Shown one piece after another: positions 39,553 to 46,959 of a DNA stretch of 64,000 bases. The DNA is taken from positions 2,418,001 to 2,482,000 of the forward strand of contig NZ_JACBZX010000001.1 of assembly GCF_013408565.1 (NCBI RefSeq). Reading direction: 5' to 3'. Numbering within the stretch: position 1 is the stretch's first letter; each line of letters begins with the position of its first letter. A program made the translations under genes and the position numbers. The DNA comes from Janibacter alkaliphilus. GTDB taxonomy: Bacteria > Actinomycetota > Actinomycetes > Actinomycetales > Dermatophilaceae. The notes beneath the pieces are model-generated. The model did not search any database and was not told where the DNA came from. It saw only the letters and a program-made list of their open reading frames with translations.

Positions 39553-39600
39553 TTGACCGGCTGTCGGTGACTCGGGGTAATCTTCGAACACACGTTCGAA
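39553..39600 (+). promoter_or_regulatory. SOS promoter with perfect LexA box
   Basis: TTGACC (39553-39558) and TAATCT (39578-39583) form a -35/-10 pair 19 bases apart. Directly overlapping the end of the -10 is TTCGAACACACGTTCGAA (39583-39600), a perfect palindrome with seven-base arms around ACAC. It matches the actinobacterial/Gram-positive LexA consensus TCGAAC-N4-GTTCGA. A bound repressor would cover the transcription start. A GAGGAGG and the GTG of the DUF6504 gene follow at 39618. Confidence 0.9.
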
Positions 39601-39617
39601 GCACCCGAGGAGGAGCC

Positions 39618-39965
39618 GTGTCCCGCCGCGTCGAGGAAACCATCGAGGTCCGCCTGACCAGTCCCGAGGAGATCCCGTCCGGGGCCTCGTCCGGGACCCT
39701 GACGACCGGCGGTGAGCCGTCGCCGGACCAGTTCCTCTGGCGCGGGCGGCTGTACCGGGTGACCGGGGTGGTCGACCGGTGGCAGGAGCGTCGCTCGTGG
39801 TGGCGCGAGGCCACCCGTGAGCGTCCGCTGGGGGCCGTGCCGACCGGCCGTCAGGTCTGGCGGGTGGAGGCCAGCCCGGGCCGTTCCGGCGTGCCCGGGG
39901 TCTACGACCTCGCCGACGCCGAGGGGCCGGACGGCTCCTGGCGGCTGCTGCGGACCCAGGACTGA
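39618..39965 (+). CDS. DUF6504 family protein, SOS-controlled
   Basis: The 115-residue protein has a short N-terminal strand (RRVEETIEVRLTSPEEIPSG) and then DQFLWRGRLYRVTGVVDRWQERRSWWREA, the DUF6504 core, rich in Trp and Arg. Homologues are found as small partners of actinobacterial DnaE and Y-family polymerase genes. No catalytic motif is seen; an adaptor role is a guess. The GTG start has GAGGAGG four to eight bases upstream, right after the LexA box. Five bases separate it from the next gene. Confidence 0.8.
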   Translation: MSRRVEETIEVRLTSPEEIPSGASSGTLTTGGEPSPDQFLWRGRLYRVTGVVDRWQERRSWWREATRERPLGAVPTGRQVWRVEASPGRSGVPGVYDLADAEGPDGSWRLLRTQD

Positions 39966-39970
39966 GCGGC

Positions 39971-40459
39971 ATGATGCGCACCACCAGCACCCCCACGTCC
40001 GGCACCGCCACGACGGGCACCGCCACGACGGGCACCTCCACGCCCTCGCCGCTCACGCTGCCCTCGGTGACCACGGCCATGGACCTGCTCGCCGCGGCCG
40101 GGCAGAGCCTCGGCGAGGCGCACTGGGCGGCCACCCTGCACGCCCGCTACGCCAGCACCCGGGTGGCCGTGCTGCGCGCCGCCGCGGCCGTCCTGGCCGT
40201 CCGCGGCGGCCCGCACCGCGGCCGTGGCCCGACCCCGGTGTGGGAGCTGCTGCCCCGGCTGGCCCCCGAGCTGACCGAGTGGGCCGAGCACTTCGCCGCC
40301 GCCCTGCCCGAGGACCCCGCGGACGGGCGCGGGCCGGTCTGCGTGCGGGTGGTCGACGACCTGCTGCGCGACGGCGAGGAGTTCACCCGGATCGTCGCCC
40401 GGACGCTCGGCCTGCCTCCGGTCCCGGTCACCGCCGACCTGACCACCCTCACCGGATGA
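39971..40459 (+). CDS. SAV_6107-family HEPN protein
   Basis: The 162-residue helical protein fits the SAV_6107 HEPN family, with MDLLAAAGQSLGEAHWAATLHARYASTRVAVLRAAAAVLA and the C-terminal LRDGEEFTRIVARTLG. The N-terminal 30 residues are a Thr/Ser-rich tract from a repeated GGCACCGCCACGACG-type sequence. No R-x4-6-H ribonuclease motif is visible, so it is probably a non-catalytic adaptor. It lies five bases after DUF6504 and overlaps dnaE (ATGA). Members of this family typically precede an actinobacterial DnaE gene. Confidence 0.8.
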   Translation: MMRTTSTPTSGTATTGTATTGTSTPSPLTLPSVTTAMDLLAAAGQSLGEAHWAATLHARYASTRVAVLRAAAAVLAVRGGPHRGRGPTPVWELLPRLAPELTEWAEHFAAALPEDPADGRGPVCVRVVDDLLRDGEEFTRIVARTLGLPPVPVTADLTTLTG

Positions 40460-43400
40460 GACCGGGAGCGGGCGACGGCTTCGCCCATCTGCACGTCGCC
40501 TCCGGCTTCTCGCTGCGGCACGGCACGAGCACCCCCGAGGACCTCGTCGCCCGGGCCGTCGAGCTGGGGCAGCCGGCGCTGGCGCTGACCGACCGGGACG
40601 GTCTCTACGGCGCGGTGCGCTTCGTCCGGGCCGCCACCGCCGCCGGTGTCGCCCCGGTGCTCGGGGCGGACCTGGCGATGGGCACCACCGCGCTCGGCGG
40701 ACCCACGGTGCCCCGCCCGGGCGGGCGCACCCCGGTGCGCGGCGGCGCCGAGGTCGACCCCCGGCTGCCCCGGGTGACCGTGCTGGCCCGGAGCGCGGCC
40801 GCGGGCGTGCCGCACGCCGCCGGCTGGGCGGCCCTGTGCCGGCTGGTCAGCGACACCCACCTCACCGGAGAGCGCGGCGACCCGGTGAGCACGCCGGAGA
40901 TGATCGCCCGTCGGGCCGCCCCGGCCGGCTCCGCGTCCGCCACGGGGCCGGGGGAGCCCGGGCCGCTGCTGGTGCTGCTCGGTCCCGGCTCCGACGTCGG
41001 TCGGGCGCTGCTGGCCCGGCGTCCCGAGCAGGCCCGTGCCCTGCTCGCCGCCTGGCACCGGCTGCTGCCCGGCGCGGTCGCGGTCGAGGTGGTCCACCAC
41101 GGGGGCCCGCCAGGCACCCCGGCCTCGCTGTCCCACGCCGCGGCGCTGCTCGGGCTGGCCGACGCCACCGGCACCCCGGCGGTGCTCAGCGCGAGCGTGC
41201 GCCACCTCGACCCGCAGGACGCGGTCGTCGCCGACGTGCTCGACGCCACCCGACGCCTCGTGGTGCTCGACGAGCGTCATCTCGACCGGGTCACCGACGC
41301 CGCCCACCTGGCCGGCACGGCGAGCATGGCGCGGGTCGCCCGCCAGGTGGCCGAGGCCGCCGGCGGCGCCGGCCGGTACGCCGGGGCCGGCCCGGGGGAG
41401 CGGGCCGCGGCGCTGCTGCAGGACACCGTGGCCACCGCCCTGGCCTGCGCCCAGGACGCCCGCCACGACCTCGGCATCGGCCGGGTGCACCTGCCGGAGG
41501 CCGGGGTGCTCGGCCTGCGCCCGGACCAGGACCCGCAGCGGGTGCTGGCCGAGCGCTGCCGGGCCGCCGTCGGCAGCCGCTACCCCGGAGCCTCCGCCCG
41601 GCTGCAGCGCCAGGTCACCGAGCGGCTCGAGGACGAGCTCGACGTCGTCGCCGCGCTCGGCTACCCCACCTACTTCCTCACCGTCGCCGCCGTCGTCGAC
41701 CTCATCACCGAGGCCGGGGTGCGGGTGGCCGCCCGCGGCTCCGGGGCCGGCAGCCTGGTCAACCACCTGCTCGGGATCAGCGCCATCGACCCGGTCCGGC
41801 ACGACCTGCTCATGGAGCGCTTCTGCTCGCCGCTGCGGGCCGAGCTGCCGGACATCGACATCGACGTCGAGTCCGCCCGGCGCACCGAGATCTACGAGCG
41901 GATCCTCACCCGCTTCGGCCGCGAGCGGGTCACCTGCGTCTCGATGATGGACACCTACAAGGCGCGGCACGCCATCCGCGACGTCGGCGCCGCCCTCGGG
42001 ATGGCCCCGACCGAGATCGACGAGCTGGCCAAGTCCTTCCCGCACATCCGTGCCCGGGACGTGCGCCACGCCCTGACCGAGCTGCCCGAGCTGCGCGCCC
42101 GCGGCCTGGACGGGCCCGACGGGCACCGGCTGAGCACCCTCTTCGACCTCGTCGAGCGGCTCGACGGGCTGCCCCGGCACATCGCCCTGCACCCGTGCGG
42201 GGTGGTCCTCTCCGACGCCGGCCTGCTGGACCGCACCCCGGTGGAGTCGAGCTGGCTGGGCTTCCCGATGAGCCAGTTCGACAAGGACGACGTCGAGGCG
42301 CTCGGGCTGCTCAAGCTGGACGTCCTCGGGATCCGGATGCAGTCGGCGATGGCTCACGCCGTCGCCGAGGTGGAGCGGGTCGACCGGCGCCGGATCGACC
42401 TCGACGACCGCGACGACGTGCCGCTGGAGGACCCGGCCACCTTCGCCATGATCCGCACCACGCACACCCTCGGCTGCTTCCAGATCGAGAGCCCGGGCCA
42501 GCGCGAGCTCATCGGCAAGCTGGGCCCGACCGTCTTCGACGACCTCATCACCGACATCTCCCTCTTCCGGCCCGGGCCGGTGAAGTCGGACATGATCCGG
42601 CCCTTCCTCGAGGCCCGGCACGGCTGGAGCAGCCCGCAGTTCCTGCACGAGAGCCTCGTCGACGCGCTCGCCGAGACCGAGGGGGTGGTCGTCTTCCACG
42701 AGCAGGTGCTGCGGATCGTCGCCGAGACCACCGGGGTCACCCTGGCCCAGGCCGACGAGGTGCGCCGCACCATGGGCACCCCGGACGGGCAGCAGCGGAT
42801 CGAGGCGTGGTGGCGGCCGGCGGCGCTGGCCCGCGGCTACCGCCCCGAGGACGTCGACCGGATCTGGCAGGTGCTGGCCGCCTTCGCCTCCTTCGGCTTC
42901 TGCAAGGCGCACGCGGCCGCCTTCGCCATGCCCACCTACCAGTCCGCCTGGCTCAAGACCCACCACCCGGCGGCCTTCCTCGCCGGGGTCCTCACCCATG
43001 ATCCCGGGATGTACCCCAAGCGGCTGCTGCTGGAGGAGGCGCGGGCGCTCGGGGTGGCGATCCTGCCGGTGGACGTCAACGCCAGCGGCGCCGAGTACCG
43101 GGTGGAGCGGCTCGACCCCGGCGCGCGCACCCTGGGGGAGGCGCGGCCCCCGGCCGACCCGGACCTGCCGGACGGCACCGGCTACGGGATCCGGGTGGCC
43201 CTGGCCGACGTGAAGGGGATCAGCGAGGAGGAGGTCGCCCGGATCGTCGCCGGCGCCCCCTACGAGTCGCTGACCGACGTGTGGACCCGGGCCCGGCCCA
43301 GCCGACCGGTCCTGGAGCGGCTGGTCCTCGTCGGCGCCCTGGACGCGGTGCACGGCACCGGCACCACCGGTGGCGGCCTGGGGCACCGCGGTCGGCTCAC

Positions 43401-44325
43401 CCGGCGCGACCTGCTGCTGCACGTCGCCGAGCTGGACCGGTGGTCCCGGGCGAGCGGCCGGGGCGCCCGGCCGCGACGATCCGGGAAGGGAGCGTCGGTG
43501 CCGGCGGCGGGATGGGTCGGTGACGGGATGCCGGGCGCCCAGCAGGTGCGCCGCCGCGGGGTCGCCCCGGTGGCCAGCCAGCTCACCCTCGACCTCGGCG
43601 ACACCCCGGAGCTCGGCGAGGGGGCCGGGCTGCCGGAGATGAGCGTGCCGGACCAGGTCAGCGCCGAGCTGGACATCCTCGGCCTGGACGCCTCCCGGCA
43701 CGTCATGGACTTCTACGCGCCGATGCTGCGCGCGCTGGGCACCACCCGCAGCGCCGACATCCTCGGCGCACGCAGCGGGTCCGAGGTGCTCACCGCGGGG
43801 GTGAAGGTGGCCACCCAGACCCCGCCGGTGCGCTCCGGGCGACGGGTGGTCTTCCTCACCGTCGACGACGCCAGCGGCCCGGTGGACGCCACCTTCTTCG
43901 AGGACGCGCAGGGGCCGTACGCGGCGACCGTCTTCCACTCCTGGCTGCTGCTGGTCCGGGGCACGGTGCGGCGCACCGGTGAGCGTGGGGTCTCGCTGCT
44001 GGCCTCCGGTGCCTGGGAGCTCTCCGGGCTGTGGGAGGCCTGGCAGACCGGGGGGATCGAGGCGGTGCACGCGGCGCTCGCGGCGGCCGACGCGCTGGCC
44101 CAGGAGCGGGCCGACGCGGGAGAGGGTCGGCGGTCCGGTGCGGCGGGGAGCCAGGACGGCGGGACCGAGCAGCCGGGCGGCGGGGAGGGGCCGCGCCGAC
44201 GTCGGGTGCTGGTGCACGCCTCGGGCTACCGGCAGTCGCCCTACGCCGACACCCGGCCGGCGGGGGAGTCCCCCTCGACCGGTCGCAAGCTGTGGCACGC
44301 CTCGCCGGGCAGCTCGGGGTGGTGA
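40456..44325 (+). CDS. dnaE2: DnaE-type error-prone DNA polymerase III alpha subunit
   Basis: The 1289-residue C-family polymerase starts with a PHP domain (FAHLHVASGFSLRHGTS), whose metal ligands look partly lost. The palm has ARGSGAGSLVNHLLGIS and the catalytic PDIDIDVES (Asp466 and Asp468). KDDVEALGLLKLDVLG and GFCKAHAAAFAMPTYQSAW follow, then an OB domain near the C-terminus. QLTLDLGD near residue 1042 resembles a beta-clamp motif. SOS control and the operon indicate the mutagenic DnaE2 type rather than the replicative DnaE1. It is longer than the usual 1050-1200 residues because of linkers at both ends. No imuA' or imuB is present. Confidence 0.85.
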   Translation: MRPGAGDGFAHLHVASGFSLRHGTSTPEDLVARAVELGQPALALTDRDGLYGAVRFVRAATAAGVAPVLGADLAMGTTALGGPTVPRPGGRTPVRGGAEVDPRLPRVTVLARSAAAGVPHAAGWAALCRLVSDTHLTGERGDPVSTPEMIARRAAPAGSASATGPGEPGPLLVLLGPGSDVGRALLARRPEQARALLAAWHRLLPGAVAVEVVHHGGPPGTPASLSHAAALLGLADATGTPAVLSASVRHLDPQDAVVADVLDATRRLVVLDERHLDRVTDAAHLAGTASMARVARQVAEAAGGAGRYAGAGPGERAAALLQDTVATALACAQDARHDLGIGRVHLPEAGVLGLRPDQDPQRVLAERCRAAVGSRYPGASARLQRQVTERLEDELDVVAALGYPTYFLTVAAVVDLITEAGVRVAARGSGAGSLVNHLLGISAIDPVRHDLLMERFCSPLRAELPDIDIDVESARRTEIYERILTRFGRERVTCVSMMDTYKARHAIRDVGAALGMAPTEIDELAKSFPHIRARDVRHALTELPELRARGLDGPDGHRLSTLFDLVERLDGLPRHIALHPCGVVLSDAGLLDRTPVESSWLGFPMSQFDKDDVEALGLLKLDVLGIRMQSAMAHAVAEVERVDRRRIDLDDRDDVPLEDPATFAMIRTTHTLGCFQIESPGQRELIGKLGPTVFDDLITDISLFRPGPVKSDMIRPFLEARHGWSSPQFLHESLVDALAETEGVVVFHEQVLRIVAETTGVTLAQADEVRRTMGTPDGQQRIEAWWRPAALARGYRPEDVDRIWQVLAAFASFGFCKAHAAAFAMPTYQSAWLKTHHPAAFLAGVLTHDPGMYPKRLLLEEARALGVAILPVDVNASGAEYRVERLDPGARTLGEARPPADPDLPDGTGYGIRVALADVKGISEEEVARIVAGAPYESLTDVWTRARPSRPVLERLVLVGALDAVHGTGTTGGGLGHRGRLTRRDLLLHVAELDRWSRASGRGARPRRSGKGASVPAAGWVGDGMPGAQQVRRRGVAPVASQLTLDLGDTPELGEGAGLPEMSVPDQVSAELDILGLDASRHVMDFYAPMLRALGTTRSADILGARSGSEVLTAGVKVATQTPPVRSGRRVVFLTVDDASGPVDATFFEDAQGPYAATVFHSWLLLVRGTVRRTGERGVSLLASGAWELSGLWEAWQTGGIEAVHAALAAADALAQERADAGEGRRSGAAGSQDGGTEQPGGGEGPRRRRVLVHASGYRQSPYADTRPAGESPSTGRKLWHASPGSSGW

Positions 44326-44349
44326 CGGGTCGCCGTCACCCCTGCCGTC

Positions 44350-44355
44350 TAGGGT
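44350..44355 (+). promoter_or_regulatory. -10 box of methyltransferase gene, leaderless type
   Basis: TAGGGT ends seven bases before the GTG at 44363. It gives the methyltransferase-dinB pair its own promoter apart from the SOS operon; I see no LexA box here. Confidence 0.45.
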
Positions 44356-44362
44356 GGTCGAC

Positions 44363-45136
44363 GTGAGTGACGAGCGACGACGCCCCCGCCGCGGCGGCCT
44401 CGAGGGCAACCTGCGCACCGCCGCCGTGTGGACCCAGGTCCGCGACCTCGCCAAGGAGCGCCAGGCCGAGCTCTCCCGGCCGTTGCGGGTGCTCGACCTG
44501 GGCGGCGGCACCGGCGGCCTGGCCGTCGGTCTGGCTGAGCAGGGGCACTCGGTCACCGTCGTCGACCCCAGCGCCGACGCTCTTGCCTCGCTGCGCCGAC
44601 GGGTCTCCGAGTCGCCCGCCGCCGGGCGGATCAGCGCGGTCCAGGGCGACGCGGACACCCTCGACGGCATCGTCGCCACCGGCTCGGTCGACCTGGTCTG
44701 CTGCCACGACACCCTCGAGGTCACCGACGACCCGGCCGCCACCACCGCCCGGATCGCCGAGGTGCTCGCCCCCGGCGGCCACCTCAGCCTGGTCACCGCC
44801 CAGCGGGTGGCCGCGGTGCTCTCCCGGGCCCTGGCCGGCCGCTTCGACCAGGCCCGGGCGGTGCTCACCGCGACCGACGGCCGCTGGGGACCCACCGACC
44901 CGGCTCCGCGCCGCTTCGACCGCGACCAGGTGCTCGACCTGCTCGGCCGCGCCGGCTTCACCATCCTCGACGTGCGCGGGGTCCGGCTCTTCAGCGATCT
45001 CGTGCCCAGCGCGCTGGTCGACTCCGAGGCCGATCGGCTCGCCCTGCTCGAGCTCGAGGAGCTGGCCGCGACGGACCGCGAGCACCCGGGGCTCAGCGAG
45101 CTGGGCACGAGCATGCACGTGCTCGCCCGGCGGTGA
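44363..45136 (+). CDS. SAM-dependent methyltransferase, class I
   Basis: The 257-residue protein has motif I LRVLDLGGGTGGLAVGLAEQG (residues about 41-61), the acidic end of strand 2 (VTVVDPSAD) and motif IV VDLVCCHDTLEV. It resembles the SmtA/CmoM group that acts on tRNA modifications or small molecules; the substrate is unproven. It sits 37 bases after dnaE2 and 13 bases before dinB, and so may be co-expressed with dinB. Confidence 0.85.
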   Translation: MSDERRRPRRGGLEGNLRTAAVWTQVRDLAKERQAELSRPLRVLDLGGGTGGLAVGLAEQGHSVTVVDPSADALASLRRRVSESPAAGRISAVQGDADTLDGIVATGSVDLVCCHDTLEVTDDPAATTARIAEVLAPGGHLSLVTAQRVAAVLSRALAGRFDQARAVLTATDGRWGPTDPAPRRFDRDQVLDLLGRAGFTILDVRGVRLFSDLVPSALVDSEADRLALLELEELAATDREHPGLSELGTSMHVLARR

Positions 45137-45149
45137 CCGACCCGAGCCG

Positions 45150-46454
45150 ATGAGCCGGCGTCAGTTCTCGCCCCCGCCGCGCACCGGCGACGGGCCGCCG
45201 GACGACACCGGCTGCACCGTGCTGCACGTCGACATGGACGCCTTCTACGCCTCGGCCTCCCTGCTCAGCCGGCCCGAGCTGGTCGGCACCCCGGTGATCA
45301 TCGGCGGCGGCGGCCGCGGGGTGGTGCTCTCGGCGACCTACGAGGCCCGGGCCTTCGGGGTGACCTCGGCCATGCCGATGGGCCGGGCCCGACGGCTGTG
45401 CCCGCAGGCGACGGTGATCGCCCCCGACCACGACCTGTACTCGCGCATCTCCGCCGCGGTGATGGAGACCTTCGCCGACGTCACCCCCTCGGTCGAGCCG
45501 CTCAGCCTCGACGAGGCCTTCCTCGACGTCGCCGGGGCGGTGCGCCTCATGGGCAGCCCGGCCACCATCGCCGGCCGGATCCGGGACACCGTCGCCGACG
45601 AGCAGGGCATCACCTGCTCGGTCGGGGTCGCCGGGACGAAGTTCGTCGCCAAGCTCGCCTCCTCCCTGGCCAAGCCGGACGGGCTGCTCGTCGTCCCGGT
45701 CGCCGAGACCGTCACCTTCGTCCAGCAGCTGCCGGTGGGCGCCCTGTGGGGGGTCGGGGACAAGACCGAGGAGGCGCTCTCCCGGCTCGGCCTGCGCACC
45801 GTCGCCGACATCGCGCACACCCCGCGGGAGACCCTGGTGCGCGGGCTGGGCGAGGCCACCGGCGCGCACCTGCACGACCTCGCCTGGGGCCGCGACCCCC
45901 GGCGGGTCGAGCCGGTGCGGCGCGAGCGCAGCATCGGCCACGAGCAGACCTACGGTCACGACGTCGACGACCCCGTGGTGGTGCACCGCACCCTGCTGCG
46001 GCTCTCCGACCGGGCCGCCGCCCGGCTGCGCTCGCACGGCCTGGTCGGACGCACGGTGAGCATCAAGGTGCGGTTCGCCGACTTCACCACGATCACCCGG
46101 TCGCGGTCGCTCGGGGAGGCCACCGACATCAGCCGGGACATCCACGCGGTCGCCCGGGACCTCTACGACGCCCTCGGGCTGCAACGGGCGCGGGTGCGCC
46201 TGGTCGGGGTCCGGGTCGAGCAGCTCTCCGACGCCTCGAGCACCCCGGTCCAGGTCCGCCTGGACGAGCCCGACCACGGCTGGCGGGAGGCGGACCGGGC
46301 GATCGACCGGGCCAGCGCCCGCTTCGGCGCCGGCAGCGTGCGCCCGGCCAGCCTCATCGCCGAGCAGGACCGCCGCTCGCCGCCGCCGGGAGGCGGGCCC
46401 GGGACCGCCAGCAGGGGCCGACCTACCGAAGGTCGCGATCGCGACCTAGACTGA
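45150..46454 (+). CDS. dinB: DNA polymerase IV (Y family)
   Basis: The 434-residue translesion polymerase has Asp28 in HVDMDAFYAS and Asp121-Glu122 in SLDEAFLDV, the metal-binding triad. Tyr33 is at the steric-gate position. TCSVGVAGTKFVAKLASSLAKPDG and the HhH region (LPVGALWGVGDKTEE) follow, then the little-finger domain. QVRLDE near residue 372 is a weak clamp-binding motif. The last 40 residues are disordered. The ATG is 13 bases after the methyltransferase stop. A complete polymerase, unlike ImuB. Confidence 0.94.
   Translation: MSRRQFSPPPRTGDGPPDDTGCTVLHVDMDAFYASASLLSRPELVGTPVIIGGGGRGVVLSATYEARAFGVTSAMPMGRARRLCPQATVIAPDHDLYSRISAAVMETFADVTPSVEPLSLDEAFLDVAGAVRLMGSPATIAGRIRDTVADEQGITCSVGVAGTKFVAKLASSLAKPDGLLVVPVAETVTFVQQLPVGALWGVGDKTEEALSRLGLRTVADIAHTPRETLVRGLGEATGAHLHDLAWGRDPRRVEPVRRERSIGHEQTYGHDVDDPVVVHRTLLRLSDRAAARLRSHGLVGRTVSIKVRFADFTTITRSRSLGEATDISRDIHAVARDLYDALGLQRARVRLVGVRVEQLSDASSTPVQVRLDEPDHGWREADRAIDRASARFGAGSVRPASLIAEQDRRSPPPGGGPGTASRGRPTEGRDRDLD
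46447..46452 (+). promoter_or_regulatory. Probable -10 box of DUF3040 gene
   Basis: TAGACT overlaps the last codons of dinB, 63 bases before the ATG at 46516; an AAGGAGG lies close to that ATG. Confidence 0.4.
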
Positions 46455-46515: not shown

Positions 46516-46959
46516 ATGGCTCTGTCAGAGCGCGAGCAGCAGATGCTCGACCAGATGGAGCAGGCCCTGCGCGCAGAGGACCCGCGCTTCGCCTCGCAGA
46601 TGAACGGCAGCTCACGGCTGCCGGAGGACCGTCGGCGGCTGCTCGTCGGCGGCCTGGGGGCGCTGGCCGGCCTGGGGCTGGTCATCCTCGGCATCAACAC
46701 CACCATGTGGATCGGCGTCGCCGGCTTCGTCCTCATCGTCGCCGCGGTCGCCTTCGCGCTGGCCCCGCGCAAGGGCGGCGGCAGCGACGAGGGCCTCGCG
46801 GTCGTCGCCGAGGACGGCTCGGTGCAGCAGCCGCGGCGGGCGAAGAAGCCGCGCCGCCGCCCGCAGGGAGCCGCCCGGCCGCAGAACCGGGGAAGCTTCA
46901 TGCAGCGGATGGAGCAGCGCTGGGACGAGCGGCGCCAGGGCGGCCAGGGCCGCTTCTGA
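46516..46959 (+). CDS. DUF3040 membrane protein
   Basis: The 147-residue protein begins ALSEREQQMLDQMEQALRAEDP, the DUF3040 signature, followed by two transmembrane helices (about 43-83) and a basic tail (KKPRRRPQGAARPQNRG). These proteins are near-universal in actinobacteria; in M. tuberculosis the Rv2169c homologue lies close to metF. Function is unknown. AAGGAGG at eight bases supports the ATG. Confidence 0.88.
   Translation: MALSEREQQMLDQMEQALRAEDPRFASQMNGSSRLPEDRRRLLVGGLGALAGLGLVILGINTTMWIGVAGFVLIVAAVAFALAPRKGGGSDEGLAVVAEDGSVQQPRRAKKPRRRPQGAARPQNRGSFMQRMEQRWDERRQGGQGRF

Follow-up and report, generated by a model that had tools for sequence, protein, structure and literature searches.

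How can an error-prone DnaE2 polymerase serve translesion synthesis in a bacterium in which ImuA and ImuB are not found, and what do the two small proteins encoded just ahead of it contribute? These questions are raised by a locus of Janibacter alkaliphilus in a window of 64 kilobases, the whole stretch of DNA that we analyzed, which corresponds to positions 2418001-2482000 of a single-contig genome of 3.32 megabases. Within window positions 39585-46454, five plus-strand genes follow a LexA (SOS) box and encode, in order, a DUF6504 protein, a HEPN_SAV_6107 protein, DnaE2, a methyltransferase and DinB. Our best explanation, to which we assign as a whole a probability of about 0.72, is that LexA controls the locus as a translesion operon of the putative DnaE2-[ImuB-C]-PolY-RecA kind, in which the HEPN protein would be an accessory rather than a required subunit.

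The box, CGAACACACGTTCG, occupies positions 39585..39598 and ends 19 nucleotides before the GTG start codon of the DUF6504 gene (39618..39965, plus strand), whose product of 115 residues matches PF20114 at 76.1 bits. The second gene (39971..40459, plus strand) encodes a HEPN_SAV_6107 protein of 162 residues (PF18726, 70.8 bits), and the third (40456..44325, plus strand) encodes a DnaE2-type error-prone polymerase of 1289 residues with a PDIDID motif. The gaps between the five genes are, in order, 5, -4 (an ATGA overlap), 37 and 13 nucleotides. A preliminary description of the window had already given the perfect LexA box, the five-base gap, the ATGA overlap and a DnaE-type third gene of 1289 residues, and all of these coordinates hold.

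One alternative is that this DnaE is the replicative polymerase, or that imuA' and imuB lie elsewhere in the genome. Nothing was found in its favor. A separate DnaE1 is encoded at G000:C1:2320925 (a frame of 1210 residues), which rules out the replicative role and leaves standing the earlier claim that a DnaE2 other than the replicative enzyme is encoded in an operon with a LexA-type box. The genome contains two DnaE-type finger domains and no third. It also contains one RecA-family gene and two Y-family genes, neither of which has an ImuB-like C-terminal extension. The Y-family gene outside the operon (L127; G000:C1:952279-952707) is DinB-like and, judging from its sequence, is not an ImuB. 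This gene keeps DADAF but has SMEEAF where DinB has SLDEAF, and its product may therefore be impaired, its activity being uncertain.

When the ImuA of an ImuB-type relative was used as the query over 12 genomes, it matched in all six ImuB-type genomes (one of which is the source of the query) versus none of the six DUF6504-type genomes, this one included. On the basis of the Y-family, RecA-family and ImuA searches we rejected a hidden ImuA or ImuB, and neither could be found in a genome that is 99.99% complete in one contig. We regard the alternative as extremely improbable. The preliminary description had reported no imuA' or imuB in the window and had pointed to a genome-wide search for them and for a separate dnaE1. 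That search returned dnaE1 and neither of the other two genes.

Is the operon likely to be under SOS control? The box at its promoter is the sole perfect LexA box in the window and, taken alone, is weak evidence: GAACN4GTTC (hereafter the strict box) occurs once versus 0.25 expected, and is found at least once in 22 of 100 shuffles. Its position 19 nucleotides before the start codon and its recurrence upstream of DUF6504 give it more weight than mere occurrence. Among 118 genomes of the class, the strict box is present at most 500 base pairs upstream of the DUF6504 domain in 32 of the 34 loci that combine DUF6504 with HEPN (window included), and equally close to DUF6504 in all eight loci that combine DUF6504 with DnaE2 and carry no HEPN gene. 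Across all stretches taken together, the strict box occurs 0.032 times per 500 base pairs, and the reversed pattern 0.0025 times. The whole genome has eight palindromic sites versus two for the reversed control, and one of these is located upstream of recA. LexA would be expected to bind the box of the operon.

Proteins encoded near the other seven palindromes of the genome are RecA, two DUF222 proteins (one with HNH), NrdR, YebC, a methyltransferase, an AraC-type protein and a DXP-synthase. Those upstream of or near the two DUF222 genes and nrdR (L136, L137, L139) are LexA-type palindromes. A separate observation is that seven stand-alone DUF6504 genes of one family (f19; L098-L102, L109, L110) have no DnaE2 in the stretch examined, and five of the seven carry the strict box at most 500 base pairs upstream.

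The DUF6504 protein very probably represents an ImuB-C domain with a gene of its own. In a Deinococcus plasmid cassette, a gene between the Y-family gene and dnaE2 is annotated as 'DUF6504 family protein', and its product matches PF20114 at 30.9 bits. A stand-alone ImuB-C has been reported at this very place, between the Y-family gene and dnaE2 of the Deinococcus cassette (PMC8072749). Residues 520-589 of a Sphingomonas ImuB gave a sub-threshold match to PF20114 (E 2.5e-4), the only match over 14 control genomes was in Caulobacter, and the actinobacterial ImuB L111 had none up to E 1. A DUF6504 profile built from 42 sequences and run on a set of 24 sequences recovered the Deinococcus protein (7.8e-11) and the Sphingomonas ImuB (0.0017).

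The predicted structure of the DUF6504 protein is mostly beta, with six strands and one short helix (mean predicted local distance difference test score, pLDDT, of 82.5). In PDB searches with this protein, no sequence matched up to E 1 and Foldseek returned nothing below E 1. Both the model and the lack of PDB relatives agree with a published description of ImuB-C as a novel beta-barrel (PMC12926913). The domain and its stand-alone form were named in PMC3765255 and followed up in PMC6511836, and we found no mention of the name 'DUF6504' in the literature searched. Thus, one of the two small proteins for which the preliminary description had no role is kin to a stand-alone ImuB-C, and proteins annotated only as DUF6504 become candidate mutasome parts.

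The polymerase itself belongs with this partner. A quick tree of 61 DnaE2 proteins and the DnaE1 fragment of this genome (fragments shorter than 850 residues were left out) places 33 DUF6504-linked and 22 ImuB-linked rows each on one side of a branch with 100% support in the Shimodaira-Hasegawa-like approximate likelihood ratio test (SH-aLRT). The loci analyzed leave out those with DUF6504 in G025, G062, G077, G083 and G091 and, for many genomes of the ImuB type, those with DnaE2. The DnaE2 of the window is a member of the DUF6504-linked group, where it pairs with a genome of the same family. Six further rows carried no label, of which one (L040) falls in the DUF6504 group and five fall with the ImuB group. 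We infer that the DUF6504-linked group corresponds to the published DnaE2B. The DnaE2 protein also carries QLTLDL, a possible clamp motif that resembles the actinobacterial clamp motif of PMC3919608.

The last gene of the operon encodes DinB (434 residues; 45150..46454, plus strand). The protein carries DMDAF and SLDEAF, which we take to be Y-family motifs, and is apparently an active Y-family polymerase. Its C-terminus includes AIDRASARFGAGSVRPASLI, which, as judged by eye, resembles the N-terminus of the organism's own RecA (a RecA N-terminal-like, or RecA-NT-like, motif). An intact DinB had been recognized earlier, but 'a little further on' understates its position, since the gene starts 13 nucleotides after that for the methyltransferase, on the same strand, and its product has the RecA-NT-like tail. 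The start codons of the methyltransferase and DinB genes are our choice.

These parts suggest the following model. Upon DNA damage, LexA would leave the box and the operon would be expressed. By analogy with the models of PMC12926913, in which the ImuB-C domain sits on the PHP domain of DnaE2 and is tied to a RecA-bound Y-family protein, the DUF6504 protein would bind DnaE2, probably at its PHP domain, and link it to DinB, which RecA would hold through the RecA-NT-like tail. DUF6504, DnaE2 and DinB might then together take the role, including that in mutagenesis, which ImuA, ImuB and DnaE2 have elsewhere. The HEPN protein is predicted to be a helical and probably non-catalytic SOS accessory protein. 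It may assist the polymerases, but the DnaE2 complex would not require it as a subunit.

Could the HEPN protein instead be a third subunit dedicated to loading or restraining DnaE2? Of the 118 genomes, 86 encode HEPN (PF18726), 52 encode DUF6504 and 37 encode both. The two genes are adjacent in 34 genomes (the exceptions are G016, G055 and G087), always with DUF6504 just before HEPN and with the end of DUF6504 at most about 350 nucleotides from the start of the HEPN domain. In 28 of these 34 loci, the DnaE2 domain starts -7 to 525 nucleotides after HEPN, and this short spacing of a HEPN gene between DUF6504 and DnaE2 speaks for a third subunit. The other six loci are L017 and L048 (each with a DnaE2 fragment after HEPN), L082 and L084, all four at contig ends, L057 with a DnaE2 piece about 8 kilobases away at the stretch edge, and L051 with no DnaE2.

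A subunit role would also agree with L040 (7380-11700), where a boxed HEPN gene stands directly before a DUF6504-group DnaE2 in a genome (G065) that has no PF20114 match, so that HEPN, DnaE2 and DinB are present alone. It would likewise agree with HEPN genes that precede ImuB-DnaE2 in families f20 and f37 (L031-L034, L041) and follow DnaE2 in family f33 (L035-L037). However, the eight loci that join DUF6504 directly to DnaE2 carry no HEPN gene, and in 42 loci HEPN is encoded with no DnaE2 or DUF6504 in the stretch examined, although some of these stretches are short or are ended by contig ends. Both sets argue against an obligate role. Moreover, PF18726 has no match in the sampled genomes of f28 and f7, and one genome (G017) has a boxed HEPN gene and a single DnaE-type match in its entirety. 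We therefore consider a dedicated third subunit unlikely. The earlier proposal that both small proteins load or regulate DnaE2 survives for DUF6504 as a likely partner, whereas the eight loci without HEPN and the boxed loci with neither partner leave its HEPN half unproven.

The boxes themselves point to a different emphasis. Among 40 HEPN loci that lack both DnaE2 and DUF6504, 20 have a strict box at most 300 base pairs upstream of HEPN, compared with 1 of 93 starts of neighboring genes (IdsA 0/19, MTHFR 0/17, methyltransferase 1/18, DinB 0/14 and DUF3040 0/25). A strict box is found at most 500 base pairs upstream of HEPN in all ten loci that combine HEPN with DnaE2 and lack DUF6504, and none was found within 350 base pairs in seven f21, three f13 and two f6 HEPN loci. 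A further set consists of the best 80 of 395 confirmed loci, which are mostly from Streptomyces and add little breadth. There, the pattern CGAAC-N4-GNNCG, taken after the LexA motif of S. venezuelae (PMC9380542), is present at most 300 base pairs upstream of HEPN in 47 of 80 loci. At the same distance, 0 of 74 methyltransferase genes and 1 of 72 DUF3040 genes have it, and the strict box is present in 4 of the 80 loci. Guessed locus numbers for HEPN, the only identifiers looked for, had no match in the available text of that study.

Additional information comes from Corynebacterium glutamicum, where cg2381, a conserved hypothetical gene assigned to the LexA regulon, is listed as induced by ciprofloxacin with an M-value of 3.86, the same as that of recA (PMC5055667). 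PF18726 matches in the C. glutamicum genome, idsA and cg2384 are named together in some papers, and in 36 of 86 loci the stretch with HEPN also encodes MTHFR or IdsA. These observations make cg2381 a plausible candidate for the HEPN gene.

Because strict boxes occur at HEPN in loci without either partner, we read HEPN as being itself an SOS gene, one with a possible tie to DnaE2. One alternative is that HEPN is unrelated to the polymerases, perhaps a checkpoint factor that binds RNA or protein, and that it shares the operon only by virtue of both being under LexA at the same site. The LexA-type boxes without DnaE2 nearby would be consistent with this, as would the links of HEPN folds elsewhere to RNA or nucleotidyltransferases (PMC3710099) and a descent that mostly follows the host. 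The HEPN tree follows host family rather than context in f16 (except for one row), f29, f20 and f35, which suggests largely vertical descent, but the protein is short, support is weak for many branches and the window sequence sits on a long one. An unrelated HEPN is harder to reconcile with the recurrence of both DnaE2 groups beside it in several arrangements, which would be surprising for a chance neighbor, though one ancestral linkage could explain it. We take this possibility seriously, while giving it clearly less than even odds.

Equally tentative is a broader proposal, that HEPN, under LexA control, assists translesion synthesis in actinobacteria generally. It would serve both DnaE2 groups and DinB and stay at one chromosomal site through vertical inheritance, with ImuB-C-DnaE2 and ImuB-DnaE2 modules being acquired, lost and swapped around it. 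HEPN_SAV_6107, a widespread actinobacterial gene of unknown role, would gain a concrete place in the SOS response.

The protein offers few biochemical hints. Its model is all-helical, with five helices (pLDDT 83.8), and the Foldseek matches are weak ones to HEPN structures (for example 1wol, probability 0.99, E 0.41), none of them reaching E 0.001. The PDB sequence search gave one match, a designed protein, at E 0.81. Catalytic HEPN RNases carry an RX4-6H motif, and this motif appears to be absent from the protein of the window. An RX4H-like string, RYxxxH, which may lie at the catalytic site, is present in 38 of 43 aligned HEPN_SAV_6107 sequences. The window protein, which has RYASTR, and three others carry another residue in place of the histidine, and one sequence gave no match. 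With this histidine lost, we rejected the interpretation that the window protein is an RNase toxin.

The RYxxxH string is thus common in the family, despite the entry for SAV_6107 in a table of PMC3710099 as lacking a conserved motif. A C-terminal QxxhP-like string was considered as a clamp motif of HEPN, but it occurs in a minority of the aligned sequences (15 of 43) and is missing from the C-terminus of the window protein, and the idea was dropped. In the literature searched, SAV_6107 was found together with HEPN only in PMC3710099, and there was no mention of HEPN among the matches listed for mutasome or DnaE2 literature.

Several results weigh against our preferred explanation of a DnaE2-[ImuB-C]-PolY-RecA operon with an accessory HEPN. 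The Sphingomonas ImuB match is below the Pfam cut-off (21.7 versus 24.2 bits), and the DUF6504 profile found only 1 of 22 actinobacterial ImuB proteins (L120, 4.4e-4). A comparison of DUF6504 with a profile of those 22 proteins was not significant (P 0.04-0.11, probability about 1%), and the conserved tryptophans of DUF6504 and the actinobacterial ImuB C-termini coincide in the alignment without significance. The link to ImuB-C therefore depends chiefly on the Deinococcus and Sphingomonas matches. For DinB, the RecA-NT motif is one assigned by eye, and a like tail is found on DinB at this site in ImuB-type genomes (for example L023 and L031-L034), so DinB may be a resident of the site that stands outside the DnaE2 complex. 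The recurrence of HEPN between DUF6504 and DnaE2 could still reflect a genuine subunit role in those loci. Finally, half of the HEPN-only loci have no strict box within 300 base pairs, and allowing one mismatch raises the count for HEPN to 26 of 40 but that for IdsA to 6 of 19 (MTHFR 1/17, methyltransferase 1/18, DinB 0/14, DUF3040 1/25).

The remaining gene of the operon (44363..45136, plus strand) begins 37 nucleotides after dnaE2 and encodes a class I S-adenosylmethionine-dependent methyltransferase whose best NCBIfam model, CmoM, scores far below its cut-off. A badly aimed search with NF045667 gave 23 weak methyltransferase matches. The gene downstream of the operon (46516-46959) is presumably of DUF3040 type. 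A methyltransferase like this one accompanies HEPN at this site, often with DinB or DUF3040, in many families, even where DnaE2 is absent.

How new, then, is this system? The preliminary description suggested a different mutasome, and there is indeed no detectable ImuA or ImuB, but DnaE2 systems that lack both and have ImuB-C have already been described (PMC3765255, PMC6511836, PMC8072749, PMC12926913). A 2026 survey names putative DnaE2-[ImuB-C]-PolY-RecA complexes (PMC12926913), and the match with these makes the kind a known one. The closest likeness is to the Tessaracoccus lapidicaptus system in that survey, another from Actinobacteria, which has a stand-alone ImuB-C, a DnaE2, no ImuA or ImuB and an apparently active Y-family protein with a RecA-NT-like motif. 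The operon described here differs by the HEPN_SAV_6107 gene between imuB-C and dnaE2. The main text of the survey contains no occurrence of HEPN, SAV_6107 or LexA, and if HEPN acts in translesion synthesis it would be a component absent from the main text of the published mutasome catalogue.

The Arthrobacter alpinus DnaE2-[ImuB-C] pair of the same survey likewise lacks ImuA and ImuB, but there DnaE2 is linked to ImuB-C only, whereas here a DinB with a RecA-NT-like tail is encoded on the same strand two genes after dnaE2. Deinococcus shares LexA-type control, a stand-alone ImuB-C, a DnaE2 and the lack of ImuA, but its operon includes lexA and a predicted inactive Y-family protein, ImuY (PMC8072749), whereas the DinB found here has DMDAF and SLDEAF. 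The mycobacterial ImuA'-ImuB-DnaE2 system has LexA-type control, a DnaE2-type polymerase and an ImuB-C domain in common with this locus, where no ImuA or full ImuB was found and DnaE2 is in the group not linked to ImuB, in a tree that names no mycobacterial sequence. The Streptomyces dnaE2-dinP operon (PMC9380542) also combines an SOS-induced DnaE2 with a Y-family gene, but the S. coelicolor system is described as having no ImuB-C and an inactive Y-family protein (PMC6511836). The operon is therefore of a known, recently catalogued and still putative mutasome kind, and its HEPN gene is the more interesting question.

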